Assembly: GCF_900070365.1 (NCBI RefSeq)
Contig: NZ_LN850107.1
Span: 1,798,001 to 1,862,000 of the forward strand
Length of the DNA stretch: 64,000 nucleotides
Source: Alloactinosynnema sp. L-07
Lineage (GTDB): Bacteria; Actinomycetota; Actinomycetes; Mycobacteriales; Pseudonocardiaceae
Direction of reading: 5' to 3'
Shown: positions 12,284 to 64,000 of the stretch, one piece after another
Layout of the letters: each line of letters begins with the position of its first letter
Position numbering within the stretch: the first letter of the stretch is position 1
The notes under the pieces: generated by a model
Told to the model about the DNA's origin: nothing
The model's input: the letters and a program-made list of their open reading frames with translations, nothing else
Database searches by the model: none
Made by a program: the position numbers and the translations under genes

Positions 12284-13128
12284 CCAACATGAAGAGTGAG
12301 CCCGCCGTCGCCGCGGACCTGGGAGCAGGCGACTGGGTGGCCATTCCTGGTGGACCGTTCATCATGGGATCCGACGAGGTCAGGCCGGATGGCAGGCCGC
12401 TGGCCGCGTCGCCGCGGCACACCGTCGATGTCGATTCCTTCCGGATAGCGCGGAGTCCGGTCTCGGTGGCCGAGTTCGCCCGGTTCGTCGACGAGACGTC
12501 CTATGTGACCACCGCGGAACGCTCCGGGCGAAGCTGGGTGTGGATCGGTACCGAGGACAAGGACATGATCCCGGACCAGGAACACCTGTGGATCAATCTC
12601 GACGGCGCGACCTGGCGGGCCCCCCGGGGACCCGGATCGGACATCGCCGACAAGGCGGACCATCCCGTGACCAACGTCAGCCATCGTGACGCCATCGCCT
12701 ACTGCGAGTGGTCCGGCACCAGGCTGCCCACTGAGGCCGAGTGGGAGAAGGCCGCGCGCGGCACCGACGGCAGGAACTACGCGTGGGGCGACACACCGCC
12801 GACGGCGACGGTCTGCAACCACTCCATGAACGTCCGCGACACCACTCCCATTGGGGCCTACCCCGACGCGGCCGGGCCGTACGGAGTGCACGACGTGGCC
12901 GGGAATGTCTGGGAGATCATGGGAACCGGGTGGCACCGGTACCCGTTCGACAAGGACAAAAGCCCACAGACCATCGTGACCAAGTTCGGCACCGTCGAAC
13001 TGGGCACCATCCGCGGGGGCTCGTTCTACAACAACTTCGATCCGCGTGGTGTGGCCGTCTGGGTGCGGACCTACATCTTGTTGGACTACAGCTGTTACGA
13101 CATGGGTTTCCGGGTGTGCGCCTGCTGA
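12280..13128 (+). CDS. FGE/SUMF1-fold protein without the FGE cysteine pair
   Basis: 282 residues. The start GTG overlaps the DUF885 stop (GTGA). Hallmarks of the formylglycine-generating-enzyme fold are clear: I-P-G-G-P-F-I-M-G-S-D-E near residue 28, R-L-P-T-E-A-E-W-E-K-A-A-R-G, G-P-Y-G-V-H-D-V-A-G-N-V-W-E, R245-G-G-S-F, and a final M-G-F-R-V. In true FGE two Cys after the G-G-S motif bind copper and the substrate; here that stretch reads Y-N-N-F-D-P-R-G-V and holds no Cys. No sulfatase gene is near, and there is no DinB-type iron domain as in EgtB. It is therefore a fold relative probably recruited for a different oxidation or binding step in the peptide pathway. Several Cys near the C-terminus (S-C-Y-D, V-C-A-C) are notable. 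Confidence 0.85.
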   Translation: MTNMKSEPAVAADLGAGDWVAIPGGPFIMGSDEVRPDGRPLAASPRHTVDVDSFRIARSPVSVAEFARFVDETSYVTTAERSGRSWVWIGTEDKDMIPDQEHLWINLDGATWRAPRGPGSDIADKADHPVTNVSHRDAIAYCEWSGTRLPTEAEWEKAARGTDGRNYAWGDTPPTATVCNHSMNVRDTTPIGAYPDAAGPYGVHDVAGNVWEIMGTGWHRYPFDKDKSPQTIVTKFGTVELGTIRGGSFYNNFDPRGVAVWVRTYILLDYSCYDMGFRVCAC

Positions 13129-13168
13129 GTTCCGCCGGTCGGCATCGTACTGGGGAGGGGGGTGTGTG

Positions 13169-14161
13169 ATGGACAGCGTGTTGTGGAACCGGATCGAGCT
13201 CGTGTCCCGCGAGTTCCCCGAGACGGAGACGGTCCAGCTCGCGCACGAGCGGCTGCGCCTGTTCGTCAAGATGGAGACGACCAACCCGAGCGGCAGCGCG
13301 AAGGACCGCTCGGCGTACTGGATTCTTCGCGAGGCCGTGCGACGCGGCGACATCACCCGCGACACCACCGTCGTAGAGTCCTCCTCCGGGAACTTCGCCC
13401 TCTCGATGGCGCTGTTCTGCGGTCGTCTCGGTGTCAGGTTCATCCCGGTCATCGACCCGAACGTCAACACTTCGACCGAGACTGTCCTGCGCCGCTCTTG
13501 TGCCAGGGTCGAGAAAGTGGCGAGGATCGACCGGACGGGCGGATACCTGCTCAGCCGACTCGACCGGGTCGCCGAACTCCTGGCCGAGATCGAGGACGGG
13601 TACTGGCCGAACCAGTACGCGAACATCGATGGCGCGCAGGCACACTACGAGCTCACCGGACGCGAGCTGGTCGCGTCGCTCGGCGACATCGATTACCTGT
13701 TCGTCGGGGTCGGGTCGGGCGCGATGATCGCGGGACTGTCGCAGCGGGTCGCGGAACTGTCCACCGATGTCACCGTCGTCGCGGTGGACGTGGCGGGATC
13801 AGTCATCTTCGGCGGAGAGCCGCGGCGTCGCCACATTCCCGGGATCGGTTCCAGTATCCGATCGCCGCTGGTCGACAAGGCGATGATCTCCGACGTCGTC
13901 GTCGTCTCGGAGCGGGAGGAGGTCGCGGGCTGTCATGACCTGCTCCGCGACCACGGCATCTACGCGGGCGGATCGACGGGATGTGTGTACGCCGCGATCA
14001 ACCGGTACTTCGAGGGATACCGCGGCCCGCCGCCGGTGGTCGCGTTCCTGTGCGCCGATCGCGGCGAGCCCTATCGGGACACGATCTACGACGACAGTTG
14101 GGTAGCGCGGACCCTCATGCCCGACCGTGAGGTCCGCGACAGGAGTGCGTCCGCCACATGA
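13169..14161 (+). CDS. sbnA: SbnA-like PLP enzyme for 2,3-diaminopropionate
   Basis: 330 residues, cysteine-synthase fold. K45 in P-S-G-S-A-K-D-R should hold PLP, the substrate loop is E-S-S-S-G-N-F, and the phosphate-binding loop is G-V-G-S-G. The set matches SbnA, which joins O-phosphoserine and glutamate into N-(2-amino-2-carboxyethyl)-glutamate. Its partner SbnB, which releases L-2,3-diaminopropionate oxidatively, is encoded at 39783-40808, so the full pathway is present but split to the two ends of the cluster. The start is ATG with GGGGAGGGG about eight bases upstream. The stop overlaps the next gene as ATGA. Confidence 0.93.
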   Translation: MDSVLWNRIELVSREFPETETVQLAHERLRLFVKMETTNPSGSAKDRSAYWILREAVRRGDITRDTTVVESSSGNFALSMALFCGRLGVRFIPVIDPNVNTSTETVLRRSCARVEKVARIDRTGGYLLSRLDRVAELLAEIEDGYWPNQYANIDGAQAHYELTGRELVASLGDIDYLFVGVGSGAMIAGLSQRVAELSTDVTVVAVDVAGSVIFGGEPRRRHIPGIGSSIRSPLVDKAMISDVVVVSEREEVAGCHDLLRDHGIYAGGSTGCVYAAINRYFEGYRGPPPVVAFLCADRGEPYRDTIYDDSWVARTLMPDREVRDRSASAT

Positions 14162-43239: not shown

Positions 43240-43545
43240 TTGATGGTTCCGGTCCAAGCGGCCATCGAGGCGGGAGCGAATCCGGCCGCGTTGGTTGACG
43301 CGATCAATAGCAGGCAGGCGGAGTTCGACGTGGCGTGTGAGGAACTGGCGAGAACGCCATCGGCCCGCGCGGTCGGCCGCGCCGAGATCGAGGCGTGGGT
43401 GGTCATGGTGGGCGAGATGGCCGTGGGGCTGGACCGCGCGGATCCCGCCAAGCTGCAGATGTTCTACGAGGCGGTGAGCTTGGAGATACTCCACGACGCC
43501 GAAGGCCGGACAGTCGATGTGACCATCCGGCGTCCAGTTCGCAGG
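43240..43545 (+). pseudogene. remnant of a serine recombinase C-terminus (copy 1)
   Basis: The reading frame gives the tail of the large serine recombinases common in actinobacteria: A-A-I-E-A-G-A-N-P-A-A-L-V-D-A-I-N, then E-F-D-V-A-C-E-E-L, and G-L-D-R-A-D-P-A-K-L-Q-M-F-Y-E-A-V. The catalytic N-terminal domain and DNA-binding parts are missing; the frame opens directly after the terminator of the previous gene. From 43254 the DNA is nearly identical to 59429-59690, in the same orientation. The two copies are thus fragments of one recombinase type, left at either end of a 16-kb block. Confidence 0.8.
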
Positions 43546-48507: not shown

Positions 48508-51500
48508 ATGAGCTTCCGCACCGGAACACGGTGGCGCCCCCTGGCGCTCCCGGCCGTGCTCGCCCTGGCGTTGGCGGCCGTTCAGCCCGCCATCGCCGAA
48601 CCGAAGGCGGCCCCGTGGGCCGCGCCTGCCGCGCCGCAGGTGACGGGCGTCCCGGCGCCCGATTCGGTCGCCCGCGTCACACGTCCGGCGTGGACAGCGG
48701 ACGGCAAGGTCGTGCGTGGCGCGCGGCCGGTGACCTGGCCCGCCGGGGAAGCCGCTGTCGAGTTGGCCACGGTGCCGACCGAGGGCGGCCGGGGCGGCCG
48801 CTCCAGCGGCCGGGTCCGCGCAGGCGATCTCCCGGTCGTCCTGTCCAGCGCCGCGTCCGCGAAAATGCGGGTGGCCGTGCACGACCGCGCGACCGCGGCG
48901 CGGCTCGGTGTCGACGGGCTCGTGCTGTCCGTCGGCCGGGCCGACGGCGGGTCCGGTCCGGTGACGGTCGGCGTCGACACCCGTGGCTTCGCCGCCGCGT
49001 TCGGCGGCGACTGGGGGTCGCGGCTGCGGCTGGTCGCCCTCCCGTCGTGTGCGCTGACCAGCCCGGATCGGGCCGACTGCCGCACCGCCCGGCCCGTGCC
49101 GGGCGGAACTGTAGATCCGGGCGGGACGGTGTCGGGCACGGTGCCGCTGGGCGCCGACCGCGCGGTCCTCGCCGTCGAGGCCGGGCCGTCCGGGGATAAC
49201 GGCGACTACACCGCGACCCCGCTGACCCAGTCCGGCACGTGGAACGTCGGGCCGCAGACCGGTGACTTCAGCTGGTCGACGGCGTTGCGGACGCCGCCGT
49301 CCAACGGTGGCCCGGCGCCCGCCCTGTCGGTGGCCTACTCGTCGGGGTCGGTCGACGGGCGCACCAGCACCTCGAACAACCAGGGTGGCTGGGTCGGCGA
49401 CGGCTGGTCGCTGTGGTCGGGGTTCATCGAGCGCAAGTACACCTCGTGCGCCGAGGACAACCCGTCCCACAAGACCGGCGACCAGTGCTGGCGCGGCGCC
49501 AACGCGACCCTGTCGATGAACGGGCACGCCGGTGAGCTGATCGACTCCGGGACGCCGAACGTGTGGCGGCTGAAGCGAGACGACGGAACCCGCGTCGAAC
49601 GGCTCACCGACACCACCCGCGGCAACGGCGACGACGACGGCGAGTACTGGAAGGTCACCACGACCGACGGCAGCCAGCATTTCTTCGGCGCCCACAAGCA
49701 GCCGAACTGGTCTGACGGCAAGCCGGTGACCGACTCGGTGTGGACGGTTCCGGTGTACGGGAACAACGCGGGCGAACCCTGTCACCAGGCGACGTTCGCT
49801 GCCTCGTGGTGCCGCCAGGCGTGGCGGTGGAACCTCGACTATGTCGTCGACCCGCACGGCAACACCATGACCTTCTTCTACGGCAAGGAAACCGGCGCCT
49901 ATGGCCGGGACAACACCCCGTCACAGCGCACCGACTACACCCGAGGCGGCTGGGTCGACCGGATCGAGTACGGGACCAGGCAGGGGTCGGAGGTGAGCTC
50001 CGTCGCGCCCGCGGTCGTGCGGTTCCAGACCGCCGAACGCTGTCTGTCCGGGTGCTGGTCGGGTACCCCGTGGACGTCGGCCGCGGTGACCGCGGCCTGG
50101 CCGGACACCCCGTGGGACCAGCACTGCGCCGCCGCGCCGTGCACCGGCAAGACCGCGCCGACGTTCTGGTCCGCGCGCAGGCTCACCGCCGTCACCACCC
50201 AGGTGCGGACCGCCGCGGGCGGCTACCGGGACGTCGAGTCCTGGTCGCTGCGCCACGAATTCCTCAACGCAGGTGACAACGAGGGCTCCCCACTGTGGTT
50301 GCGGGGCCTGACCAAGACCGGCCACGTCGGAACGGCGGTGTCCGATCCGGAGATCGTGTTCAACCCGGGCGCCGAGCCGCTGCCGAACCGCGTCGACGGC
50401 CCCGCGGACGGCCGCACCAGCCTGACCAGGTTCCGGATCAAGGCGATCACCAACGAGTCGGGCGGCCAGGTCACCGTCGCCTACTCCGGCCCGGACTGCA
50501 CCCGCGCGACCCTGCCCGACCCGGCGACCAACACCAGGCGGTGCATGCCGCAGTACTACAGCCCGAGCGGGACACCGACCCTGGACTGGTTCCACAAGTA
50601 CGTGGTCACCAGCGTCACCTTGCACGACACCACCGCCGACGGCACGAACGCACCGTCCAATCCGGACCAGACGACGTCCTACGACTACCTCGACGCCCCA
50701 GCTTGGCACCACACCGACGATGAGCTCACCAAGACCGAGCACCGGACGTGGGGTGACTGGCGCGGCTACGGCCGCGTGCTGACCCGCACCGGCGCGACCG
50801 GCGCGCAGACCGCGGTCGAGACCCGGTACCTGCGCGGCATGGACGGCGACAAGCAGGCTGGCGGCACTCGGGACGTGTGGGTGGCCGACACCTGGGGCGG
50901 CACCGTCGAGGACCACGAGTCCCTCAACGGGTTCACCCGCCAGACGATCACGTTCAACGGGCCGGGCGGCGCGGAGGTGTCGTCCACCGTCAACGATCCC
51001 TGGCGCGCGGGCCCGACCGCGACCAGGACCCGCGACGGTGTGACCACCACCGCCTGGCGCACCGGTGTCGGCGTCGCGAAGACCCGGACGCCGCTGGCCG
51101 CGGGCGGGTTCCGCACCTCCGGCAGCACCACGGTGCGTGACGAGCACGCCTTCCCGGTGACGGTCACCGACCATGGCGATCTCGCGAACGCGGGCGACGA
51201 GACGTGTACCCGCACGGCCTACGCGCGCGACGAGACCCGGGGGATGCTCGACAAGGTGGCGTCGGTCGAGACACTGGCGGGCACGTGCGACGCCGCGTCC
51301 ACCCCGCCGATGCCGTCGACGGTGCTGGCGAGGACACGCAACCACTACGACGACGCGGCGACGGTCGGCGTCCCGCCGACGAAGGGAGATCTCACCAAGG
51401 TCGAGGAACTGGACCGGTGGTCGGGCTCGACGCCGACGTACGTGACCGCGACGACCTCCGCCTACGACGCGAACGGCCGGGTCGTCGAGACCCGCGACGG

Positions 51501-54500
51501 GCTCAACCGGGCGAAGAAAACCGCGTACACCACCGACACCGCGACCGGGCTGGTGACCGCCAAGACCGAGACCAACGCGCTCGGCCACGTGACGGTCACC
51601 AGCTACGAGCCCGCGTGGCGGTCCCCGGTGAAGGTCACCGATCCGAACGGCGCCGTCGCCGAGCTCACCTACGACGGGCTCGGCAGGCTCACCGCGGTGT
51701 GGAAGCCGGGCCGGTCCCGCTCGCTGAGCCCGAGTCTGCGGTTCGCCTACCTGTCGCGGTCTTCCGGCGGGCCGTCGGCGATCACCACCGAGACGCTACT
51801 CCCGACCGGCACGGGGTACCGCGCGAGCGTGTCCCTGCTCGACGGGTTCCTGCGGCCCCGGCAGACCCAGGAGCAGGCCACCGGCGGCGGGCGTGCGGTC
51901 ACCGACACCCTGCACGACGCCGCGGGCCGGGTCGAGCGGAAGACCGCGCCGTACTACGACTCGACCAATTCCCCCGTGTCGGCCAACCTCGCCGCGCCCG
52001 CCGGGGAGGTCCCGTCGGTCACCCGCACCGAGTACGACGGCGCGGGCAGGGTCACAGCGGCGATCCTGCTCGGCGCAGGCGCGGCGAAGTGGCGCACCAC
52101 AACCGTCCACAATGGAGAGCGGGTGAGCACGGTGCCGCCGAAGGGCGGCACGGCGACCACGGTGATCTCCGACGTGGACGGCAACACCACCGCACTGCGC
52201 CAGTACACGGCGGCCGCGTCGGTCGGCGGGGACGACCCGGGGACCTACGACGAGACCCGGTACAGCTACACGCTGACCGGCAAACTCGGCTCGGTCACCG
52301 ACCCCGCTAGCAACACATGGACCTACGGCTACGACCTGCGGGGCCGCCAGATCAGCGCCGGTGACCCGGACAAGGGCCCGACCACGTCGGCGTTCGACGC
52401 GGCCGGGCAGCTGGTGGCCACAACCGCCCCGTACGGCACCACGACCTCGCGCCTGGCGTACACCTACGACGCCCTGGGCCGCAAGACATCGGTGCGCGAG
52501 AACTCGGACACCGGGCCCGTGCGCTCCGCGTGGACCTACGACGCGACGCCGATCGGGTCCGGGCCGCAGTTGGCCAAGGGCAGGCCGAGCTCGTCGACGC
52601 GCTACGCGGGAACAGCGGCGTACACCACCCGGGTCGACTCGTACGACCCGGCGGGACGGGCCACGTCGAACTCGGTGGTCCTGCCACCGGAGGAGTCCGA
52701 CCTGTGCGCGGCGCCCGCGCCGAACCCGTGCGCGTACACGACACCGGTCACCTACCGGGCCAACGGCGACGTCGCGACCACGACGATGCCCGCGGCGGCG
52801 GACCTGCCCGCGGAGAAGCTGACGCTCGGCTACACCGACGTCGGCAGCCCGGGCACCCTGCTGTCCCCGGCGCAGATCTACGTGTACTCGGTCGGGTACG
52901 ACAAGCTGGGCCACCTGACCCAGCGGCAGTTCGGCGCGTACGGCTCCAGGCTCGTCCAGAGCTTCGCCTTCGACGAGCAGACCTCGCGCCTGGCGGGCGT
53001 GACCGCCGTGCCCGAGGCCCGCGACGAGGTGCTGGACCTGGCGTACACCTACGACGACACGGGCAACCTCGAGTCAGTGGCGGACACCTCTGGTGCGCAG
53101 GCCGCCGACCGGCAGTGCTTCCAGTTCGACCACCTGCGGCGGCTCACCGAGGCGTGGACCCCGGCAGCGGCCTGCGCGGCGGACCGGTCGGTCGCCACGC
53201 TCGGCGGACCGGCACCGTACTGGCACAGCTGGACCTTCGACGTGACCGGCAACCGGAAGAGCGAGACCCGGCACGCCACGACCGACACCGTCGTCGGCTA
53301 CCAGTACCCCGACCCCGGGCAGCCCCGGCCGCACGCGGTCACCCGGGTCACCGCGACCGGCGGGCAGGTCTGGGACCGCACCTACCGGTACGACAACGCG
53401 GGCAACCTCACCGAACGGCCGACCGGCACGGCGACCCAGACACTGAGCTGGGATGTCGAGGGGCACCTGGCGTCGACCGGCGGCGCCACCCGCACGGTGT
53501 ACGACACCGATGGCACCCGGCTCGTGCGGGTCGACGCGGACGGCGCCAAGACGCTGTACCTGCCGGGTGGCACTGAGATCCGGGCGAAGGGCGGGGTGCG
53601 CTCGGCCAAGCGCCACTACGTCCACGCAGGCACGACGGTGGCACTGCGCACGGGGGCGGGTGTCCAGTGGCTGCTGAGCGACCACCACGGCACCGCCCAG
53701 GTGGCGGTCGACGCGACCACCCTGGCCGCGACGCGGAGCCGGACCACGCCCTACGGCGAGGACCGCGCGACGGCGGCGGGCTGGCCGACGGCACTGGATC
53801 GCGGGTTCGTCGGCGGCACAAAGGATCCGACGGGGCTGACCCACATCGGGGCCCGCGAGTACGACCCGGCGCTCGGCCGGTTCATCTCGGTGGACCCGGT
53901 GATCGACCCGAAGGACCCGCAACAGCTCAACGCCTACGCCTACGCAGGCAACAACCCGGTGTCGTTCAGCGACCCCGACGGCCTCCGGGCGGTGGACGAC
54001 TTCGGCGGCAGCGGATCGGCCCAACCGTCGATCAAGCCGTATCACCCGGTCCTCCGCCCGGCGAGAGGTGTCCACTGGTTCTCCCGCCTCAACCAATTCG
54101 GTCAGGGGACCTCCAGCGTGATCTCGGCATGGAACTACGCGGCGGACGGGGCTGGCGGCCTCGGGTACGCGTTGTCCGCGCACAGCTACATGCTCAGCGG
54201 GGCCACGCCGAAGGGCTTGATCAACCGCATGTCCTGGGGAATCACGCGTGCCCTGTCGACCGTCGAGGATCTCAGGGTGCCGGACGCCACCGGCAAGCTG
54301 TACAACCCGATGAAGTCAGCGGGCGGATCCCTGATGAACGCGACCCGCGGGACAGGGTGGAAGGAGGTCGCCCGCGGGCTGGGCAGCTCGGCACGTGAAG
54401 GGGCGCTGAAGCGGTTCGGTCTTGTCGGCAACATCGCCGACGCCGGGTTCGGCTTCGTCGAGGACATCCACGATGGCGCCGATCCCTTGGAAGCGGGGGT

Positions 54501-54720
54501 GAAGGCGGCGTTCAAGCTCGGCGGGTCGATCGCGGGCGCCGCGGCCGGGGCGTCGGTCGGGACCGCGCTGTGCGGCGGTGTCCCGATTTGCGGCGTGATC
54601 GGCGGCGCCATCGGCGGCAAGCTGGGCGGCGACCTCGGCGGGTTCATCGGCGAGAAGGCCGCGCCGGTGATCTCCAACGGGCTCAAGGCGGCTGGCCGGA
54701 CGCTCTGCTTCTGGTGCTAG
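48508..54720 (+). CDS. secreted RHS/YD-repeat protein with a Gly-rich C-terminal domain
   Basis: 2070 residues with a Sec signal (A-L-A-A-V-Q-P-A-I-A). At least nine YD-type repeats (Y-D-G-L-G-R-L, Y-D-L-R-G-R, Y-D-A-L-G-R-K, Y-D-D-T-G-N-L and others) fill about residues 980-1640. The RHS core motif A-R-E-Y-D-P-A-L-G-R-F-I-S-V-D-P with N-P-V-S-F-S-D-P-D-G lies near residues 1785-1825. RHS shells enclose and deliver C-terminal toxins. Here the last 240 residues are variable, and their end is a Gly/Ala-rich glycine-zipper stretch (G-G-S-I-A-G-A-A-A-G-A-S, G-G-A-I-G-G-K-L-G-G) that could insert in membranes. No known nuclease motif and no immunity gene are seen downstream. Confidence 0.9.
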   Translation: MSFRTGTRWRPLALPAVLALALAAVQPAIAEPKAAPWAAPAAPQVTGVPAPDSVARVTRPAWTADGKVVRGARPVTWPAGEAAVELATVPTEGGRGGRSSGRVRAGDLPVVLSSAASAKMRVAVHDRATAARLGVDGLVLSVGRADGGSGPVTVGVDTRGFAAAFGGDWGSRLRLVALPSCALTSPDRADCRTARPVPGGTVDPGGTVSGTVPLGADRAVLAVEAGPSGDNGDYTATPLTQSGTWNVGPQTGDFSWSTALRTPPSNGGPAPALSVAYSSGSVDGRTSTSNNQGGWVGDGWSLWSGFIERKYTSCAEDNPSHKTGDQCWRGANATLSMNGHAGELIDSGTPNVWRLKRDDGTRVERLTDTTRGNGDDDGEYWKVTTTDGSQHFFGAHKQPNWSDGKPVTDSVWTVPVYGNNAGEPCHQATFAASWCRQAWRWNLDYVVDPHGNTMTFFYGKETGAYGRDNTPSQRTDYTRGGWVDRIEYGTRQGSEVSSVAPAVVRFQTAERCLSGCWSGTPWTSAAVTAAWPDTPWDQHCAAAPCTGKTAPTFWSARRLTAVTTQVRTAAGGYRDVESWSLRHEFLNAGDNEGSPLWLRGLTKTGHVGTAVSDPEIVFNPGAEPLPNRVDGPADGRTSLTRFRIKAITNESGGQVTVAYSGPDCTRATLPDPATNTRRCMPQYYSPSGTPTLDWFHKYVVTSVTLHDTTADGTNAPSNPDQTTSYDYLDAPAWHHTDDELTKTEHRTWGDWRGYGRVLTRTGATGAQTAVETRYLRGMDGDKQAGGTRDVWVADTWGGTVEDHESLNGFTRQTITFNGPGGAEVSSTVNDPWRAGPTATRTRDGVTTTAWRTGVGVAKTRTPLAAGGFRTSGSTTVRDEHAFPVTVTDHGDLANAGDETCTRTAYARDETRGMLDKVASVETLAGTCDAASTPPMPSTVLARTRNHYDDAATVGVPPTKGDLTKVEELDRWSGSTPTYVTATTSAYDANGRVVETRDGLNRAKKTAYTTDTATGLVTAKTETNALGHVTVTSYEPAWRSPVKVTDPNGAVAELTYDGLGRLTAVWKPGRSRSLSPSLRFAYLSRSSGGPSAITTETLLPTGTGYRASVSLLDGFLRPRQTQEQATGGGRAVTDTLHDAAGRVERKTAPYYDSTNSPVSANLAAPAGEVPSVTRTEYDGAGRVTAAILLGAGAAKWRTTTVHNGERVSTVPPKGGTATTVISDVDGNTTALRQYTAAASVGGDDPGTYDETRYSYTLTGKLGSVTDPASNTWTYGYDLRGRQISAGDPDKGPTTSAFDAAGQLVATTAPYGTTTSRLAYTYDALGRKTSVRENSDTGPVRSAWTYDATPIGSGPQLAKGRPSSSTRYAGTAAYTTRVDSYDPAGRATSNSVVLPPEESDLCAAPAPNPCAYTTPVTYRANGDVATTTMPAAADLPAEKLTLGYTDVGSPGTLLSPAQIYVYSVGYDKLGHLTQRQFGAYGSRLVQSFAFDEQTSRLAGVTAVPEARDEVLDLAYTYDDTGNLESVADTSGAQAADRQCFQFDHLRRLTEAWTPAAACAADRSVATLGGPAPYWHSWTFDVTGNRKSETRHATTDTVVGYQYPDPGQPRPHAVTRVTATGGQVWDRTYRYDNAGNLTERPTGTATQTLSWDVEGHLASTGGATRTVYDTDGTRLVRVDADGAKTLYLPGGTEIRAKGGVRSAKRHYVHAGTTVALRTGAGVQWLLSDHHGTAQVAVDATTLAATRSRTTPYGEDRATAAGWPTALDRGFVGGTKDPTGLTHIGAREYDPALGRFISVDPVIDPKDPQQLNAYAYAGNNPVSFSDPDGLRAVDDFGGSGSAQPSIKPYHPVLRPARGVHWFSRLNQFGQGTSSVISAWNYAADGAGGLGYALSAHSYMLSGATPKGLINRMSWGITRALSTVEDLRVPDATGKLYNPMKSAGGSLMNATRGTGWKEVARGLGSSAREGALKRFGLVGNIADAGFGFVEDIHDGADPLEAGVKAAFKLGGSIAGAAAGASVGTALCGGVPICGVIGGAIGGKLGGDLGGFIGEKAAPVISNGLKAAGRTLCFWC

Positions 54721-54726
54721 TCCGGT

Positions 54727-54762
54727 GTGGAGGGCAGGTCGGCGGTCCGGCGTGCCCTCCAC
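54727..54762 (+). terminator. terminator of the LamG/RHS operon
   Basis: GTGGAGGGCA (54727-54736) pairs perfectly with TGCCCTCCAC (54753-54762) across a 16-base loop, starting six bases after the RHS stop. Confidence 0.8.
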
Positions 54763-54812
54763 CCATCAGGCCGATTGCCGGCGGCGCCGCGAGATCGATA
54801 TGGTCTGCGGCT

Positions 54813-57800
54813 GTGCGATTCGGAGTCCTGGGGCCCCTCGCCGTCCAGGTACGCGCCAAGGATGTCGATCTTCGGTCCGCCAAGCAGCGCATCCTGCTGG
54901 CGCGGCTGCTCGCCAGCGCGAACCGCGCGGTGTCCCCACAATTGCTGGTCGAAGCCCTGTGGGAGACGCCGCCCGCGTCCGCCACCGACAACCTCCGGGT
55001 GTACATCTACCAGTTGCGGCGCGCGCTCGGCGACAACGCCCGGATCACCCACGGCCCGGAGGGCTACGCGCTCACGGTCCGTCCCGGGGAGCTGGACGTG
55101 GACCGCTTCGCCGAACGGGTCGCGGCCGGGATGGCCGCCCTCGACCAGGATGCTCCGGCGCTGGCGGCGACCGAGCTGGCCGCCGCGCTCGCCGAATGGC
55201 GCGGCCCGGCGTACGGCGAGCTCGCCGAACACCCCACGGTGCGGCCCACCGCGATGGCGCTCGACGAGCAACGGGTCCGCGCGGTGGAACTGCGGATCGA
55301 CGCCGACCTCCGGACCGGCCGTCACGCCGAGGTGATCGGCGAACTGGTAGCGGAGACCGGCGCCCACCCGTTCCGCGAGCACCTGCACGCGCAGTTGATG
55401 ACCGCGCTCGCCCTGGCCGGGCGCCAGGCGGAGGCGCTCGATGTGTACCGGCGGGTCCGGGCGATGCTGGTGGACGAACTGGGTGTCGAACCAGGACCGG
55501 CGCTGCGCGATCTCCACGCCAGGCTGCTGCGCGGCGAGGCGGCGCCGGCGGCGCGGGCCGCGCCGATGGCGGGGTCTACCGCCACCGCCAGCGGCTGCCC
55601 CTACCTCGGGCTGCTCGCGTATCAGGCCGAACACCGGTCGGTGTACTTCGGCCGCGCCGAACTCCTCGAGCGCGTGCTGGCGAAGGTGGAACGTCAGGAC
55701 GTCGTTGCCGTGATCGGCGCGTCCGGCAGCGGGAAGTCGTCCCTGCTGCGGGCCGGGCTCGTCGGGCGCCGGGTGGACGACCCGGCGTGGCGCGCCGTGG
55801 TGCTGACCCCGACGAGGTCCCCGCTCGACGCCCTCGCGAAGGCATTGTCCGACCTGTCCGGCAGGCCCGCAGGCGACCTTGCCGCCGACCTGCGCGCCGA
55901 CCCGGCCACGTGCTACGTCACCGTCCGGACCGCGCTCGCCGACGGCTCTCCCGACACGCGCCTGCTGCTGGTCGTCGACCAGGTGGAGGAGCTGTTCACG
56001 CTCAGCCCGCCCTCGGACGACCGCGACCGGTTCATCGCGGCTGTGCTCGACGCCGCCGTCGGACCCGACCGCCGCGTGAAGGTGGTGCTCGGCGTGCGCG
56101 CCGACTTCATCGGCGCGCTCACCGGCAGCGCGGCGCTGTTCGACGCGCTCGGCGAGGACGGCACCCTGCTGGTCGGCCCGGTCTCCCGGGCCGACCTGCG
56201 CGAGATCATCCTGATGCCCGCGCGGCGGGCCGGGGTGAGCGTGGACGCCGACCTGCTGGCGACCATGCAGGCCGACCTCGGCGACGTCGCCGGGCCACTG
56301 CCGTTGCTGTCTCACGCGCTGCGCCAGACCTGGCACAACCGGGCGGGCGACGCCATGACCCTGGCCGCCTACCAGGCCAGCGGTGGGGTGCGCGGGGCGA
56401 TCGCGATGACGGCGGAACGGCTCTACGAGGGCTGCGACGCAGGCGAGCGGGCCGCCGTCCGGCGGATCTTCCTGCGGCTGACCGCGCTGGGCGAGGGCAC
56501 CGACGACACCAGCCGCCCGATCCAGCGCGCCGAGTTGGCCGGGCTGGCCGCGCCGGAGGTCATCGACGGCGTCCTCGACCGGCTGGTGCGCGAGCGCCTG
56601 GTCGTCGTCGGGGAACACACCATCGCGGTGGCCCACGAGGCGGTGATCAACGCCTGGCCGCGCCTGCACCGGTGGCTCGGCGACGACCGGGCCGACCTCG
56701 TAGTGCACCGCAGGCTCACCGTCGCCGCGCATACCTGGCGGGAGCTCGACGAGGACACCGACGCCCTCTACCGCGGCGCGCAGCAGCTGACCGCGGCGGC
56801 GTGGGCCGAACGGCATGCCGCCGAGTGCAACGAGGTCGAGCGCGCGTTCCTCCTGGCCGGGCAGGATCTCGCCGACCGCGAACTGGTCGCGGCCCGGCGC
56901 CGGGCCCGCCAGCTCAAGCGGTTCGTCACCGCGCTCGCGCTGCTGCTCGTGGTCGCCACCGTCGCCGCGGTGGTGGCCGTGGTGAAGGGCCGCGAGGCGG
57001 GCGACCGGGAGGCGGTCGAGCTGGCGCACCGCGTGGCGGGCATCGCGACCGGCATGATCGGCGACGCCCCGGACACCGCGGGCCTGCTCGCCATCGAGGC
57101 CTACCGGATCCACCCGGACCCGGACACCCTCGGCGCGCTGCTGAGCACGTCGGCCGCCGCCCATCGGCGCATCGACCTCAACGCGGACGGCCGTTCGGTG
57201 TACGGCGCCGCCCTCAGCCCCGACGGCCGGACCGTCGCGTCGGCCGACGTGGACGGCGCGATACGGCTGTGGGACATCGCCGGGCGCGAGCTCGCCGGGG
57301 AACTCGTCGACCTGCGGACAGCCATGCCTGACGCGAGCGCGCGAGAAGTGATCTTCGACCGCACTGGCGGTCTGCTGGCCGGACTGACCCGCGCCCAAAC
57401 CGTCGGGCCGAGCGAGGGCATGATGGTCGTGTGGGACCTCGTGACCCGCGAGGCGGTGTTCCAGCAGCGCTTCGAATCGGTCGGGACGACGATGGCGTTC
57501 AGCCGCGACGGCACCACCCTCGCGGTCGGGACGGGGGCGGGCGTCGTCGAGGTCTGGGACGTCCGCACCAGGTCGAAACGGGAGCTGGCAGGTGACGGCG
57601 AGCCGATCCGGGGGGTCGCGATCAGCCCGACCGGGGCGTACCTGGTGTCCAGCGACGGGAAGACGCCGCCGGTGCTGTGGGACCTGCCGGGCGGCAGGCG
57701 GCTCGCGACCGTGGAAGACCCGGACGCCACCACGGTCGCGTTCGACTCCGTCACCGACACGTTCATCACGTCGGCGCAGCTGCGGGGCGTCCGCGCGTGG

Positions 57801-59039
57801 CGGGTGACCGGCGGCCACGTCGAGCCGCTGTCGCGGCTGCCCGCGCAGCCTTCCATGGCGTGGGACGTGTCCGAACCGGTGGGCGACCGGATCGCCGTCG
57901 TCGACGAGAACGGCAAGGTCGCGGTGTGGGACCTGGTCCGGGGGCAGGTGCTGGCCGCCCACGACGACCGTGGCCGGGTGGAGGCCCGCTCCGTTGTGCT
58001 GGGCCAGGACGGCTCCACGCTGGTGTCGGCGGGGCTGGGCCAGACCATCGTGGTCCGGCGCGGCGCGGTCCCCGGTTTTGGCGGACACGGCGAGGCAGTC
58101 AGCTCGCTCGCGATCAGTCCCGACGGCGAGACCATCGCCTCCGGCGGCTACGACCGCGTGGTACGCCTGTGGAATCGCGACGGCGACCTGGTCCGGCTGC
58201 TGGTGCCGGAGGGCGGTGACCGGATCGAAGGGGTCGCGTTCAGCCCGGACGGGGCGCATGTCATCGCGGTCGGCCGTGACCACACGATCACCAAGTGGGT
58301 GACGGCCACCGGAAAGGTGGAGCGGTCACGCCTCTACAGCGGGCTCGGCGCCACCACCGACCTCGCGATCGCGCCCGACGGCCGCACCCTGGTGACCACC
58401 TCCGGGATCCGCTTCCGGTTCAACCTCACCGACCTGAGCGACGCGCCGTTGCCCGGCCCGCCGTGGATCGCCGCCGCCGCGGCCTTCGCTCCATCGGGCG
58501 ACCTCGTGTCCACTGACCCGTCCGGCAGTCTGATGGTCTGGAACGGTCGCACCGACACCCAGCGGCACCGCGTCAAAACCGGCCAGGGCTCGGTGCACGA
58601 CGTCGCGGTCAGCTCCGACGGAGCATCGGTCGCCACTGCTGGTGCCGATCGCACGGTACGGGTGTGGGACAGCGCCACCGGAGCTCAGCGCGCCGAGTTC
58701 GCGTGCGCCGTCGCCGCGGCGGAGACGGTCGCCTTCTCCCTCGCAGGCGACCGCGTCGCCGCCGCGTGCGCCGACCGCACGATCACCGTGTGGGACCTCG
58801 CCACGGGCACCCGGATCACCACGCTCACCGGCCACTCGGCCCGGATCCGCGCCCTTCTGTTCCTCCCCGGCGGCGACCTCCTCTCCGCCGCCGACGACAC
58901 GCGGATCATCCGCTGGCCGCTGTCGCCGGACACCGCCCGCGCCCGCATCTGTGACGAAGTTGCCCGAGACCTCACGGAAGCGGAGTGGCACGCCAGCATC
59001 GGCACGGAGACCCCGCACCCGATCTGCGCGACCGCGTAG
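54813..59039 (+). CDS. SARP/BTAD-STAND NTPase-WD40 regulator
   Basis: 1408 residues from GTG 54813; upstream in-frame codons run into the RHS gene. Order: OmpR-type winged helix (about 1-90, F-G-V-L-G-P-L), bacterial transcriptional activation domain (about 95-245), P-loop NTPase (G302-A-S-G-S-G-K-S-S, with D-Q-V-E-E-L-F as Walker-B-like acid), a hydrophobic segment at about 703-728 that could cross the membrane, and a C-terminal propeller of WD-type repeats (L-W-D-I, V-W-D-L, V-W-D-S and others, about 790-1390). Such proteins are actinobacterial SARP-type activators with a signal-sensing propeller. The target could be the neighbouring genes, but nothing in the sequence proves it. It follows the RHS terminator by about 50 bp. 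Confidence 0.9.
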   Translation: MRFGVLGPLAVQVRAKDVDLRSAKQRILLARLLASANRAVSPQLLVEALWETPPASATDNLRVYIYQLRRALGDNARITHGPEGYALTVRPGELDVDRFAERVAAGMAALDQDAPALAATELAAALAEWRGPAYGELAEHPTVRPTAMALDEQRVRAVELRIDADLRTGRHAEVIGELVAETGAHPFREHLHAQLMTALALAGRQAEALDVYRRVRAMLVDELGVEPGPALRDLHARLLRGEAAPAARAAPMAGSTATASGCPYLGLLAYQAEHRSVYFGRAELLERVLAKVERQDVVAVIGASGSGKSSLLRAGLVGRRVDDPAWRAVVLTPTRSPLDALAKALSDLSGRPAGDLAADLRADPATCYVTVRTALADGSPDTRLLLVVDQVEELFTLSPPSDDRDRFIAAVLDAAVGPDRRVKVVLGVRADFIGALTGSAALFDALGEDGTLLVGPVSRADLREIILMPARRAGVSVDADLLATMQADLGDVAGPLPLLSHALRQTWHNRAGDAMTLAAYQASGGVRGAIAMTAERLYEGCDAGERAAVRRIFLRLTALGEGTDDTSRPIQRAELAGLAAPEVIDGVLDRLVRERLVVVGEHTIAVAHEAVINAWPRLHRWLGDDRADLVVHRRLTVAAHTWRELDEDTDALYRGAQQLTAAAWAERHAAECNEVERAFLLAGQDLADRELVAARRRARQLKRFVTALALLLVVATVAAVVAVVKGREAGDREAVELAHRVAGIATGMIGDAPDTAGLLAIEAYRIHPDPDTLGALLSTSAAAHRRIDLNADGRSVYGAALSPDGRTVASADVDGAIRLWDIAGRELAGELVDLRTAMPDASAREVIFDRTGGLLAGLTRAQTVGPSEGMMVVWDLVTREAVFQQRFESVGTTMAFSRDGTTLAVGTGAGVVEVWDVRTRSKRELAGDGEPIRGVAISPTGAYLVSSDGKTPPVLWDLPGGRRLATVEDPDATTVAFDSVTDTFITSAQLRGVRAWRVTGGHVEPLSRLPAQPSMAWDVSEPVGDRIAVVDENGKVAVWDLVRGQVLAAHDDRGRVEARSVVLGQDGSTLVSAGLGQTIVVRRGAVPGFGGHGEAVSSLAISPDGETIASGGYDRVVRLWNRDGDLVRLLVPEGGDRIEGVAFSPDGAHVIAVGRDHTITKWVTATGKVERSRLYSGLGATTDLAIAPDGRTLVTTSGIRFRFNLTDLSDAPLPGPPWIAAAAAFAPSGDLVSTDPSGSLMVWNGRTDTQRHRVKTGQGSVHDVAVSSDGASVATAGADRTVRVWDSATGAQRAEFACAVAAAETVAFSLAGDRVAAACADRTITVWDLATGTRITTLTGHSARIRALLFLPGGDLLSAADDTRIIRWPLSPDTARARICDEVARDLTEAEWHASIGTETPHPICATA

Positions 59040-59351: not shown

Positions 59352-59690
59352 GACCGAGTACGCAGCAGGTTCAGGCTGCGCAGAAACGCAAGCAGGGACG
59401 CTCAGACACGGCTGGGGCGGTTGCAAGCGGCCATTGATGCAGCGAATCCGGCCCCGTTGGTTGACGCGATCAATCGCGCAGGAGGAGTTCGACGTGGCGT
59501 GTGAGGAACTGGCGAGAACGCCATCGGCCCGTGCGGTCGGCCACGCCGAGATCACGGCGTGGGTGGACATGGTGGGCGAGATGGCCGTGGGCTGGACCGC
59601 GCGGATCCCGCCAAGCTGCAAATGTTCTACGAGGCCGTGAGCTTGGAGATGCCCTACAACGCCGAGGCCGGACAGTCAATGTGACCATCC
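59352..59690 (+). pseudogene. frameshifted serine recombinase C-terminus (copy 2)
   Basis: The same recombinase tail as at 43240 but split over three frames. R-L-Q-A-A-I-D-A-A-N-P-A-P-L-V-D-A-I-N is in one frame. After about 59472, E-E-F-D-V-A-C-E-E-L...M-V-G-E-M-A-V-G continues in a second. After about 59593, D-R-A-D-P-A-K-L-Q-M-F-Y-E-A-V is in a third. At least two indels therefore disable it. Near-identity to copy 1 in the same direction makes the pair a 240-bp direct repeat bracketing 16 kb. Confidence 0.8.
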
Positions 59691-59734
59691 GGTCTGCAGG
59701 TAGAGTGCGCCATTCCGTTACCCGGAAAGGCTCA

Positions 59735-60301
59735 ATGGCTCGGCAGGATATTCGCAAGGGAGAACGTGGCCGAGACCGTGAAGGCTTTCGTAGGCTCTCA
59801 GGGCGGCGTGAGCGAACGGGAGACCGGGAATCGGCGAAGGCGCGGCTGGCGGACGCTGAGGCGCGATTGCGGCGGTTCCAGGAGGCGTTCGCTGCCGGTA
59901 TCGACCCGATGGCGGTAATGGAGCCGATGAACCAGGCCGAGGCAGAGCGGGTGAGCGCGCGAGCCGAACTGGACAACGCACCAGCGCCCACCTTGATCAC
60001 AGCCGCCGAGGTCCATTCAATGATCGATTCACTCGGTGACGTGGCGTCGGCGCTATCCGGGACCGACCTGGACGCGCTGGCTGACCTGTACCGAAGTGCC
60101 CAGCTAGAGCTACGGTACGAAAACGCAGAAGAGGCCGCCTACGTGGCAGCCTCTGTGCGGGTGAATAGTGAGTGTCCGAGGACGGACTTGCGCACTAACC
60201 ACAACTCTGAGTCTGACCTCATGATCAAAGGTACCTGTCCCAGTGAGTTCCGCCTGGGACACCAACGAGCGGGATGCAGGACATCCGCTCATAGCTCCTG
60301 A
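59735..60301 (+). pseudogene. remnant of a second serine recombinase tail
   Basis: An ATG at 59735 opens a frame whose middle (about 59830-60165) matches the coiled-coil end of a different actinobacterial serine recombinase: A-R-L-A-D-A-E-A-R-L-R-R-F-Q-E-A-F, A-G-I-D-P-M-A-V-M-E, and L-A-D-L-Y-R-S-A-Q-L-E-L-R-Y. No catalytic domain is present, and the last 40 codons read as unrelated sequence. The expressed product, if any, would not be a recombinase. It marks another old integration event at the edge of the low-GC block. Confidence 0.7.
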
Positions 60302-60532: not shown

Positions 60533-60761
60533 CGAAGGCTTCCAAGTCGTCGGATTCCGTCGTGAACCCTAATCGGCCTGATGTGGATCTCCTTGCAAGA
60601 CCGTGGTTCGACCCGTCTGTACCCCTGCTCCGGCCCCGATCGGCTACGGCCTACTTGCCACACTGCGACAGTGCAACCACGCCCAGTAACAACAAGGCCG
60701 GCCGTGACGATGCACGTACGACGCGTCACCTTGCGCGTGTTTACAGAGGAGCTGATCGAGC

Positions 60762-63700
60762 ATGGATTCAGGCGGCGAAGCTGCAGTGCAGCGAGGCGTC
60801 ACGTACAATTACGAAGCCCTGCTCGATGAGCACTTTCAACACTTAGTGCAAACCCTCCTTCTTGCGGAATTTCCTGGCCTCCAATGCTTGCCCGTTGGAA
60901 TGCCAGACGGTGGCAGAGATGCATTTACCCGCGGCGGTATTGTCGCCCAAGTAAAATTCGCTCGAAATCCTTCAAAAATTGACGATCCGTTTGGGTGGTT
61001 CAAGAAGGCGATCGCTGGAGAAAAGGCCAAGCTTGAAAATCTCGTCCAACGGGGAATGCAGCGATACATCTTCGTATGCAATATTCCGGGAACGTCCCAC
61101 CTGGATGCGGGGCTGATCGACAAGGCGAACAAATATCTCGATGAGAACCTGGATGTGCCGAGCCAATGTCTATGGCGCGACGATCTAGATAGGCGTCTCG
61201 ATAGAGCTTACGACGTAAAACTAAGATTCCCACACCTTCTAAATGGTCCAGATTTTCTCAGATTGATGTGGGAATCGCCGAATAATGAGTCTCTTTCTAG
61301 GCGTCGGGCGACCATCGAGGCGTATCTGCGCACGCAATACCTAACAGATGACACGCTTCGATTCAAGCAAGTCGAAATGCTAACTACGAAGCTGTTCGAT
61401 CTGTATATCGATGTGCCGATTCGACCTGTATCTAGCGCCAGTGAGCGCCAGATGCTAACACAGAAGGATGGGCCACGGCCCCTTTCGGTGCCCGAGCAAA
61501 TTGCAGCTATGGTTGGTGGGCGCGCAACTGGCGGCCGTACAGGGCACGAAGTTTTTGACTCAACCAGGGCTACTTGGGCCGGAGCTGCGGAGTTGATGTC
61601 CGATCAACTTCAGCTTGAGCATGTTAGGCGGGTCGTTGTCGAGGGCGCGCCCGGTCAAGGAAAGACCACGCTTAGTCAGTATCTCGCGCAGATTCAACGA
61701 GCTCGCTATCTCGGGAAGGTGGATGCCCTGGAGGGGCTTCCAGCACAACATACGATTGGTCCAACGTTCCTGCCATTCAAACTCGAACTGCGAGACCTCT
61801 CTCATTGGCTAACCGGATTGGATCCCTGGGATCCCGATACATCGACACGGCACAATGAGATTCCTTCCTTGGAATCTGCTCTTGCGGCACATGTAAGGCG
61901 CTATTCGGGAGGTTCCAGGTTCGATGTCGATGACCTCCGGGCATTGCTGAGTGAGACTCCTGCCCTAATTATGCTGGACGCGCTTGACGAAGTGGCTGAT
62001 CTTAACGATCGGAAGAAGGTTGTAGCAGAAATCGAAGCCGCTTCAGAGCGCCTTGATTCCCCGGCAGGAAGGAATGTCGTTCTTGTAACCAGCCGTCCTA
62101 CAGCAATATCCAATGCGCCAAGAATCGATCGAACGCTGTTTGTTCACTACAACCTGCAGCCAATCGAACCACGTTTAGCGCTTTCGTACGCAAAGCGATG
62201 GTCTGCCGCAAGAGGTCTCACGACGCGCGACTCTGCGGAGCTGCAAACAATCCTGCAAAGCAAGCTCGACTCCACACACATGGCGGAGCTGGCGAAGAAC
62301 ACGATGCAGCTCACAATCTTGCTGAGCCTGGTGTTGTCTCGTGGGAGTAGTTTGCCAGACAAGAGGACGGAGTTGTATAGCTCGTACCTCGACCTATTCA
62401 TGAGTAGAGAGTCCGACAAGAGTTTGGACGTACGGGATAACAGGCCACTAATTCTGGATCTCCATGGATATCTTGCTTATCAACTCCACGCAAAGGCAGA
62501 GGGCCAGCGGACGACTGGCCGGATCAGTACAGATGAGCTGCGAGAGCAAGTCGCCGAATATCTTCGCAACGAGGGGCACAGCTCTGATCTTGCCAGTCGA
62601 CTGTTTGATGCCGTAGTCCAGCGTGTGGTCGCAATCGTGTCCAGAGTCGAGGGCACGTTTGAGTTTGAGGTACAACCACTTCGCGAGTATTTCGCGGCAA
62701 GGCATTTGTATCAAACCGCTCCCTATTCACCGACAGGCAAGGAGCGAAAGGGAACCAAGCCCGACCGATTTGATGGGATTGCACCGAATCCATATTGGAT
62801 GAATGTCACGCGATTCTATGGAGGCTTCTTCTCGAAAGGTGAGATCCTAGATCTGGCACATCGAGTTTGTGATCTCATCCAATGCTCGGATGGCGCCTTC
62901 GACTTTTATCCGCGCAGATTAGCTTTGGCTCTGTTGCAGGACTGGGTGTTCTCACAGGTGCCTCCGGCTGTGAAGATGGTTGTGGAAGCGCTACTCGATG
63001 ACACCGGAATGGTGTGGGCGTCGAGCCTAAAGGCGGACCATCGGATCGAGTCGTACCTGCAGACCGAGACGGACGATTTTCGGCTATGGCCGGAGGGAGG
63101 TGGCGCAGAGTATGCAAGGGATCTGATCTGGAAGCGCATCATTTCTGATAGCGCAGATGACTGGTGCATGATCTGGTGTTCCCTAATGTTGTCCGTCGAC
63201 AATCGTGACAATATCCACGCCAGATGGACTCATCACTTCCATTCGTTGAAATCGATGAAGGCGCGAACAAGGTGGGCTCAGGTCGCGGAGTTCTTGCAGC
63301 TCATCCACAGGCTATCTGCTGTTGAGTACTCGGACCTGTTGTGTATAGAAGCCGAACGGAGTCTTGGAGTTAGGGCACTAGCGCTGCGGGGCAACGAAGA
63401 GCACTTCAGATTTCTTCTCGCGGAACATCAGCACGCGTTTGTTAAGGCTGTTTTGGGATTCGGCGGAGTTCGGCCTATCGAATTTTCCCGAGACAGGAAT
63501 AGTAGTCTTAATAACCTTCTAATTTTGTCGCATCCTTATGTTTGGGGACGGCAGTTCAGAATGCATTTGGCCGGTGAGATATCTAGCATGGCGAAGACGT
63601 CGGTCGAGCCATTTGCTGCTCCAATTTCAACACTTGCGGGGTCGTTGCAAGGTGACATTGAGCACTCGCTTGAGCCGTGGGAGCGCGCCATCGATTCGCT

Positions 63701-64000
63701 AGAAGGTATCTTTGGCCGGACATTGACGACTATTGAGCTTAGCTGCACTGCTGCCGCGATCGTGTCTGCAACTGAGCGAGGGCAGGGTGCGTCACATTTG
63801 GTAAACGAGGAGTCGGTTTCACTACCAAGGCGGTTTCGATATGCGAGGCGTCAGGGGAACAAATCTTCATGGTGGAAGGCTCAATTTGAGCGGATTGCAA
63901 GTCTGGACGATGCTCAAGTCTGGCTGCTTGGAATTCTCACATGGGCGTCACCATCTGTGGTCATAGATTGTTTGGCATCTATTAATAGGGCAATTGGCAA
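60762..64000 (+). CDS. PD-(D/E)xK nuclease-NACHT NTPase (NLR-like defence protein), cut at right edge
   Basis: The frame from ATG 60762 is open for more than 1079 codons to the window end; an in-frame TGA at 60753 fixes the ATG as the first start. N-terminus: D49-G-G-R-D53 and Q63-V-K65, the D...QxK core of Mrr-like PD-(D/E)xK nucleases. Centre: P-loop G295-A-P-G-Q-G-K301-T-T, Walker B L-D406-A-L-D-E410, and S-R-P-T plus Q-P-I-E-P as in NACHT domains. The remaining 500 or so residues contain no recognised repeat. The layout is that of bacterial bNACHT/Avs-type STAND proteins, which sense phage proteins and trigger a nuclease. GC content and codon use (many A/T third positions, TTA and AGA/AGG codons) differ sharply from the rest of the window, showing recent transfer. 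A membrane or TPR sensor part may lie beyond the edge. Confidence 0.88.
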   Translation, partial: MDSGGEAAVQRGVTYNYEALLDEHFQHLVQTLLLAEFPGLQCLPVGMPDGGRDAFTRGGIVAQVKFARNPSKIDDPFGWFKKAIAGEKAKLENLVQRGMQRYIFVCNIPGTSHLDAGLIDKANKYLDENLDVPSQCLWRDDLDRRLDRAYDVKLRFPHLLNGPDFLRLMWESPNNESLSRRRATIEAYLRTQYLTDDTLRFKQVEMLTTKLFDLYIDVPIRPVSSASERQMLTQKDGPRPLSVPEQIAAMVGGRATGGRTGHEVFDSTRATWAGAAELMSDQLQLEHVRRVVVEGAPGQGKTTLSQYLAQIQRARYLGKVDALEGLPAQHTIGPTFLPFKLELRDLSHWLTGLDPWDPDTSTRHNEIPSLESALAAHVRRYSGGSRFDVDDLRALLSETPALIMLDALDEVADLNDRKKVVAEIEAASERLDSPAGRNVVLVTSRPTAISNAPRIDRTLFVHYNLQPIEPRLALSYAKRWSAARGLTTRDSAELQTILQSKLDSTHMAELAKNTMQLTILLSLVLSRGSSLPDKRTELYSSYLDLFMSRESDKSLDVRDNRPLILDLHGYLAYQLHAKAEGQRTTGRISTDELREQVAEYLRNEGHSSDLASRLFDAVVQRVVAIVSRVEGTFEFEVQPLREYFAARHLYQTAPYSPTGKERKGTKPDRFDGIAPNPYWMNVTRFYGGFFSKGEILDLAHRVCDLIQCSDGAFDFYPRRLALALLQDWVFSQVPPAVKMVVEALLDDTGMVWASSLKADHRIESYLQTETDDFRLWPEGGGAEYARDLIWKRIISDSADDWCMIWCSLMLSVDNRDNIHARWTHHFHSLKSMKARTRWAQVAEFLQLIHRLSAVEYSDLLCIEAERSLGVRALALRGNEEHFRFLLAEHQHAFVKAVLGFGGVRPIEFSRDRNSSLNNLLILSHPYVWGRQFRMHLAGEISSMAKTSVEPFAAPISTLAGSLQGDIEHSLEPWERAIDSLEGIFGRTLTTIELSCTAAAIVSATERGQGASHLVNEESVSLPRRFRYARRQGNKSSWWKAQFERIASLDDAQVWLLGILTWASPSVVIDCLASINRAIG

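Follow-up and report, generated by a model that had tools for sequence, protein, structure and literature searches.

A probable one-gene NLR-like immune receptor, with a predicted nuclease head, a NACHT NTPase and a helical solenoid, carried by a putative serine-integrase element in Alloactinosynnema sp. L-07

The stretch of Alloactinosynnema sp. L-07 DNA analysed here (the ‘window’; 64,000 nucleotides, G000:C1:1798001-1862000 of a 7.4 Mb, single-contig genome) ends within a large gene that encodes a predicted nuclease, a NACHT NTPase and an all-helical solenoid, and that adjoins the left end of a putative mobile element. Within the window the gene occupies 60762..64000 of the forward strand, its frame (60762..63998) running without a stop up to the edge; with flanking DNA added, a further 526 bases carry it to a normal stop at genome position 1862526, giving 1254 amino acids, 175 of them past the window. 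The early frameshift or stop beyond the edge, which would have undermined the original prediction of a defence gene, did not appear, as extension of the contig yields an intact frame of 1254 codons; moreover, since the conserved C-terminal residues W1251-F1252 are present (kept in 71/72 and 65/71 aligned sequences, respectively), the gene is full-length. A GAGGAG at 60746..60751 (+), 10 bases 5′ of the ATG, is a likely ribosome-binding site; a start at codon 13, where relatives begin, was ruled out, that codon being GTC and the ATG having this Shine-Dalgarno-like sequence. The gene’s G+C content of 0.531 (0.545 at third codon positions) lies below all 113 segments of the same length taken from positions 1-60000 (mean 0.702, sd 0.022, minimum 0.653), in agreement with the ‘clearly foreign’ base composition proposed for it earlier.

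The predicted nuclease, delimited by conservation, structural model and profile comparison, spans residues 15-165 (60804..61256; all domains lie on the forward strand) and carries D49-G-G-R-D53 (codons at 60906-60920) and Q63-V-K65 (60948-60956). It is followed by a linker domain recognised by profile matches (residues 166-285; 61257..61616), by the NACHT NTPase with its helical and winged-helix parts (286-660; 61617..62741), by an HD2-like helical part (661-760; 62742..63041) and by the all-helical solenoid, the presumed sensor (761-1254; 63042..64000, with its last 175 residues beyond the window). Walker A (G295-A-P-G-Q-G-K301-T-T303) lies at 61644-61670 and Walker B (residues 404-410, including L405-D-A-L-D-E410) at 61971-61991. 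Each motif named in the original prediction is found at its expected residues, and their conservation lies well beyond chance: in an alignment of 72 rows (the query plus those 71 of 80 genome-scan relatives with a frame of >=1150 aa; gaps excluded from counts) D49 is conserved in 69/70 and D53 in 70/70, with Q63, K65, E87, K301, D409 and E410 each in 72/72. Both this conservation and the domain order uphold the nuclease-NACHT architecture, and the NLR-like design (NLR, nucleotide-binding leucine-rich-repeat receptor), put forward previously.

Alignment and modelled secondary structure together reveal the PD-(D/E)XK active site, D...(D/E/Q)-x-K, on an alpha-beta-beta-beta-alpha-beta core, and hhalign comparison of the nuclease with Mrr_cat stretches (10 of the 12 listed were taken in) gives an E-value of 5.7e-9. 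The Pfam model Mrr_cat (PF04471) itself finds no match in the protein, nor anywhere in its genome, and we therefore place the domain in the PD-(D/E)XK superfamily rather than in Mrr_cat. Judged by its sequence, the N-terminal domain is a PD-(D/E)XK nuclease, Mrr-like and predicted to cut DNA. The NACHT module, with its Walker A and B motifs, is recovered by both Pfam scan and alignment, and the best structural matches to its predicted fold are animal NACHT NLRs. As for the C-terminal part, said earlier to contain no recognisable repeat, it is true that no Pfam model falls on it (the scan gave no match on either the nuclease or the ~490-aa solenoid), but it is confidently predicted to form an all-helical solenoid; no leucine-rich-repeat protein is among the structural matches shown for it. 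Nuclease profile, solenoid model and the effector exchange described below thus combine into an architecture of effector and sensor around a NACHT core, in which the solenoid, as modelled, is presumed to be the sensor.

A plasmid search with the family protein returned 28 records, four of which (Arthrobacter pAL1, M. lentiflavum, Arthrobacter ANT_H40 and R. qingshengii) hold a protein annotated as ‘HNH endonuclease’ that aligns only from residue 174-182 onward. Against the family profiles these four score 37-43 bits for the linker, which is retained on effector exchange, 361-384 for NACHT, 51-59 for the HD2 part and 44-131 for the solenoid (the lowest value, 44 bits, being that of the short, 891-aa pAL1 protein), and give no match to the nuclease profile; Pfam HNH_2 is detected in all four, above cut-off in two. 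In a PADLOC comparison, the M. lentiflavum HNH head scores 87 bits with endonuclease effectors and 82 bits with SAVED_HNH, labels which we take to denote the HNH-SAVED effectors (Cap5) of cyclic-oligonucleotide-based anti-phage signalling systems (CBASS); the likeness to CBASS is limited to the head of these sister proteins, that of the window gene being PD-(D/E)XK. Among 320 sequences, comprising the best 120 of 473 proteins, the best 120 of 271 proteins and 80 of 141 loci (query included), 197 have a head matching the PD-(D/E)XK profile, 115 one matching the HNH profile, and eight, which appear N-terminally truncated as read, match neither; these counts are not a census, coming from one query per kind with some proteins listed twice, and both head profiles were built from some of the sequences counted.

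In a tree of the NACHT part (107 rows: 80 with PD-(D/E)XK heads, 26 with HNH heads and one K. variicola protein), the HNH rows, sampled from the second list with the four plasmid proteins added, are all set apart from the rest by a single branch (support 90/99), so that a single head exchange suffices to explain them; the PD-(D/E)XK rows come from 11 phyla, some of which are represented by metagenome-assembled genomes alone. The C-terminal end can differ too: the nuclease (31 bits) and NACHT (125 bits) profiles both recognise the protein from a K. variicola plasmid, and those of the linker, HD2 part and solenoid do not. This 1320-aa protein (L120, plasmid NZ_CP044049.1, 3524-7486) is encoded near a Lit-family phage exclusion gene. 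Separately, two full-length family members (L058 and L061) lie ~17.6 kb apart on the Arenicellales chromosome OY282380.1. Such modularity is as would be expected of immune STAND proteins (signal transduction ATPases with numerous domains), and provides the strongest argument from computation for the nuclease being an effector.

To the right of the NACHT gene lie, in order, two paralogues, a small helix-turn-helix (HTH)-like gene, an FtsK-like gene and a serine integrase (Recombinase 61 bits, Resolvase 36 bits), the last of these ~11 kb away and outside the window. The FtsK-like gene scores 21.4 bits with FtsK_SpoIIIE (cut-off 24) and 84 bits with a PHROG FtsK/SpoIIIE-like family; its matches to PADLOC SspH and mad8 fall over the FtsK-type region. 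The paralogues (~450-530 aa; L002:10700-12125, +, and 12461-14056, −, and so inverted) lack a Pfam family along most of their length, one having a Pfam HTH match and the other none; by our own reading, for which there is no library match, they may carry a Nudix-like motif. A 24-bp motif marks the left, attL-like end at 60172..60195 (+), its only occurrence in the window, just after an integrase remnant, and its partner occurs once in L003 at 39-62 (genome 1875039-1875062), at the 3′ end of the integrase frame; as the motif was defined from these two sites, the chance figures of 0.04 and 0.02 are not independent.

An independent test of these ends comes from the genomes G268 and G098, where NACHT relatives (37-40% and 60% identical, respectively) each adjoin an integrase that is 84% identical to the element’s over the N-terminal two thirds and 49-51% over the remainder, and where the motif is found at both element ends with one or two mismatches. 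In both, the copy beside the integrase coincides with the 3′ terminus of a tRNA-Leu(GAG) gene, and a widened motif pattern, run over 96 loci, occurs elsewhere only in L080, again within tRNA-Leu(GAG), with no hit for the reversed pattern. Measured from outer motif to outer motif, the elements come to 17.1 kb in G268, 16.9 kb in the window’s genome and 7.8 kb in G098. That of G268 shares the FtsK-like gene (67%), the paralogues (54%, 65%) and the small gene (62%) in conserved order and orientation, with its NACHT gene in the opposite orientation to the window’s, and the smaller G098 element holds an integrase, a regulator with HTH and DUF5753 domains and the NACHT gene; the paralogue pair also occurs beside a Planosporangium relative (L018). 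For an IMG/VR ‘virus’ record (L162, IMGVR_UViG_2808606522_000002), the integrase and NACHT matches have figures identical to those of the G098 element, so that this may be the element miscalled as viral.

When the two flanks of the G098 element were each sought on their own in 60 genomes of the genus (a set that contains G098 itself), they adjoined exactly (0 extra bases) in five, and we conclude that the insertion is real and precise. The flanks are 17-23 kb apart in G200, G277, G319, G321 and G328, and 25-120 kb apart in G331, G333, G349 and G353 (by subtraction from listed rows). The tRNA-Leu(GAG) 3′ end, as seen at L122 4858-4942 and its counterparts in this genus, is a crowded insertion site. 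In the window’s genome a full-length tRNA-Leu(GAG) match (96%) lies ~280 kb from the element, whose right end has only a 22-bp match to the tRNA 3′ end, equalled in score by another genomic place; the target here may be a tRNA remnant. Insertion into trxB was considered and ruled out: the trxB of L003 (1577-2507, +) is a 5′-truncated second copy, with 92% DNA identity to the intact gene at G000:C1:5841585, and the intact locus shares no other piece with the region.

This arrangement recalls the actinomycete integrative and conjugative elements (AICEs), of which a Mycobacterium group uses serine integrases at tRNA-Leu and some are reported to integrate at tRNA remnants; the same source calls serine-integrase use of tRNA genes rare (PMC3218068). 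The AICE combination of integrase and FtsK-like translocase is present in the window’s element as in that of G268, and two relatives share the tRNA-Leu 3′ end; no replication initiator (RepSA, RepAM or Prim-Pol) was matched among the open reading frames scanned, a subset of the whole, and in the window’s genome the right end has only the 22-bp match. A rival reading is inter-element immunity, whereby the receptor would mainly defend the element that bears it from plasmids and other conjugative elements, perhaps by recognising a conserved protein of transfer or replication, rather than from phages. The NACHT gene adjoins the left end in all three elements (each found via that gene), the tRNA-Leu(GAG) site is crowded with the 17-23 kb inserts noted above, and the paralogues’ putative Nudix-like motif brings to mind Pif, the Nudix protein of pSAM2 that confers conjugal immunity (PMC3218068). 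We nevertheless think this unlikely: the majority of relatives were not seen in an element of this type, as among 98 loci scanned the element’s integrase finds matches in two (L122 and L121, the latter the window’s own) and its FtsK in four (L023, L128, L016 and L123, the last two, at 25% identity, probably from one genome), and bNACHT25 and bNACHT32, which have been studied experimentally, respond to phage (PMC12169576).

The two decayed recombinases reported earlier to the left of the gene hold up as C-terminal serine-integrase parts only, and the element’s own integrase lies on the other side. One remnant (59813..60130, +) is 44% identical to residues 397-502 of that integrase and probably stems from an earlier element; the second (59424..59692, +) has 91% DNA identity to 43255-43530, itself 37% identical to residues 419-499. 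All three pieces are most readily explained as relics of other elements that used this type of site, and the two 91%-identical copies, 16 kb apart, suggest repeated insertions framing the intervening block. Such remnants, with the truncated trxB copy, might portray the receptor gene as a degenerate, inactive passenger of element decay, an idea that we find barely credible in view of its intact frame, catalytic residues, Walker motifs and C-terminal end. Directly left of the remnants is a second STAND-type gene (54570-59039, +), a BTAD, nSTAND1 NTPase and WD40 fusion, preceded by a gene for a 2070-aa RHS/YD-repeat protein (48508-54720, +; RHS_repeat 50 bits); proteins of this type frequently terminate in a variable domain. 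Some 16 kb right of the element’s end, L003:15970-18360 (−) encodes a 796-aa AAA ATPase (AriA 57, GajA 42, Old 40 bits).

Within the source genus the full family occurs in one of 16 genomes, the window’s own, with ten others matching only within residues 285-658. Across the wider bacterial family, about 14 of 297 genomes match over nuclease and NACHT among the matches listed: eight in one long stretch (one with an internal stop), five in two separate stretches, and one, G137, with 31% identity; in G200 and G273 the match begins only at residue 83-86. That many carriers are actinomycetes and cyanobacteria, and that apoptotic pathways have been treated side by side with the NTP-dependent conflict systems found in multicellular prokaryotes (PMC7159879), could suit a programmed-death or developmental switch of filamentous bacteria unrelated to invaders. 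This we hold to be very improbable, given the patchy presence, the carriage on elements and plasmids, and relatives in Pseudomonadota, Bacillota and Bacteroidota.

Among plasmid relatives (11 of the 28 records examined, 10 with annotation), four of the ten annotated neighbourhoods have a defence-type gene within 4-6 kb, namely Abi (R. fascians), Abi and HsdR (Arthrobacter ANT_H40), SIR2 (R. qingshengii) and Lit (K. variicola), a count made without a control set and hence suggestive only. The ‘defence island’ of the original prediction draws some support from these plasmids, but within the element itself no other defence gene was recognised, two further element proteins having been run against PADLOC. 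Nor did a conserved partner gene emerge: no neighbour family recurs in more than six loci (80 loci plus L002, clustered with a crude gene caller), and the clusters of four and three loci probably represent fragments into which the NACHT gene was divided. A phage collection contained no match to the receptor gene, so that association gives no phage trigger.

The closest described counterparts are the clade 6 bacterial NACHT proteins bNACHT25 and bNACHT32, which are likewise single genes with an N-terminal PD-(D/E)XK domain, a central NACHT and a C-terminal sensor, and whose head degrades DNA during infection (PMC12169576). Their catalytic Asp also lies near residue 50 (D48; D49/D53 in the window gene), and D48A removes defence (PMC12169576). 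They have an NCH1 domain where the window gene has its ~490-aa solenoid, a distinction drawn by description only; the Pfam scan of the window protein, made with a library not checked for an NCH1 model, gave no NCH1 match. The STAND proteins of P4 satellite hotspots, with their C-terminal repeats, mobile carriage and exchangeable TIR, SIR2 or Mrr_cat heads, offer a further likeness (PMC9122126). Theirs are another host group and element, and here too the comparison is by description only. The effector head, STAND NTPase and repeat-type sensor of Avs (AVAST) proteins form the same tripartite layout as the window gene, and Avs kinship would be compatible with structural matches to animal NACHT NLRs, from which (NOD2, NLRC4, NLRP3) the window gene differs in its nuclease head, animal heads being CARD or PYD. 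The Avs profile search suggested earlier was unproductive: with the window part (1079/1254 residues), PADLOC reported five weak matches (E 0.002 to 0.03), none to an Avs model of the kind of protein named in PMC10907252. The design is already known, an Mrr-NACHT fusion as such having been noted in 2007 (PMC1913061); in the literature listings and excerpts surveyed, which did not extend to the Cell 2023 bNACHT and Science 2022 Avs papers, we came across no description of the family, its sensor or its tRNA-Leu carriage.

Synthesising these results, we consider it probable that a serine-integrase element here bears, as its cargo, an NLR-like (STAND/NACHT) immune receptor consisting of one gene, with a role in anti-virus alarm that is likely, if unproven. 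By analogy with bNACHT25/32 and NLR biology, we suggest that, at rest, the NACHT module would hold nucleotide and keep the N-terminal nuclease inactive, until the solenoid binds an invader-derived protein, most likely from phage, or a host protein altered by infection. The trigger might be a phage protein bound directly or a guarded host process, as DnaJ is for bNACHT25. The NACHT would then swap its nucleotide and oligomerise, the nuclease domains so brought together would cut DNA, and the infected cell would stop growing or die before phage could spread; on this analogy, we infer phage protection by the window gene.

More tentatively, we speculate that the family might form a separate, pan-bacterial branch of NLR-like proteins, marked by a large helical sensor peculiar to it and by DNase heads (PD-(D/E)XK or CBASS-type HNH) that can be swapped, and that in actinomycetes it could be a main cargo of small tRNA-Leu serine-integrase elements, acting as transmissible immune units that protect the host, and the attachment site too, from phages and competing elements. 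At all events, this is a single-gene receptor family spanning 11 phyla, with no Pfam match on nuclease or sensor and, for the window protein, no convincing PADLOC match. Two unrelated DNase heads on one NACHT-sensor body would provide a clean handle on effector switching in NLRs and on the target of the sensor, and the small element a defined unit for studying how immune genes spread.
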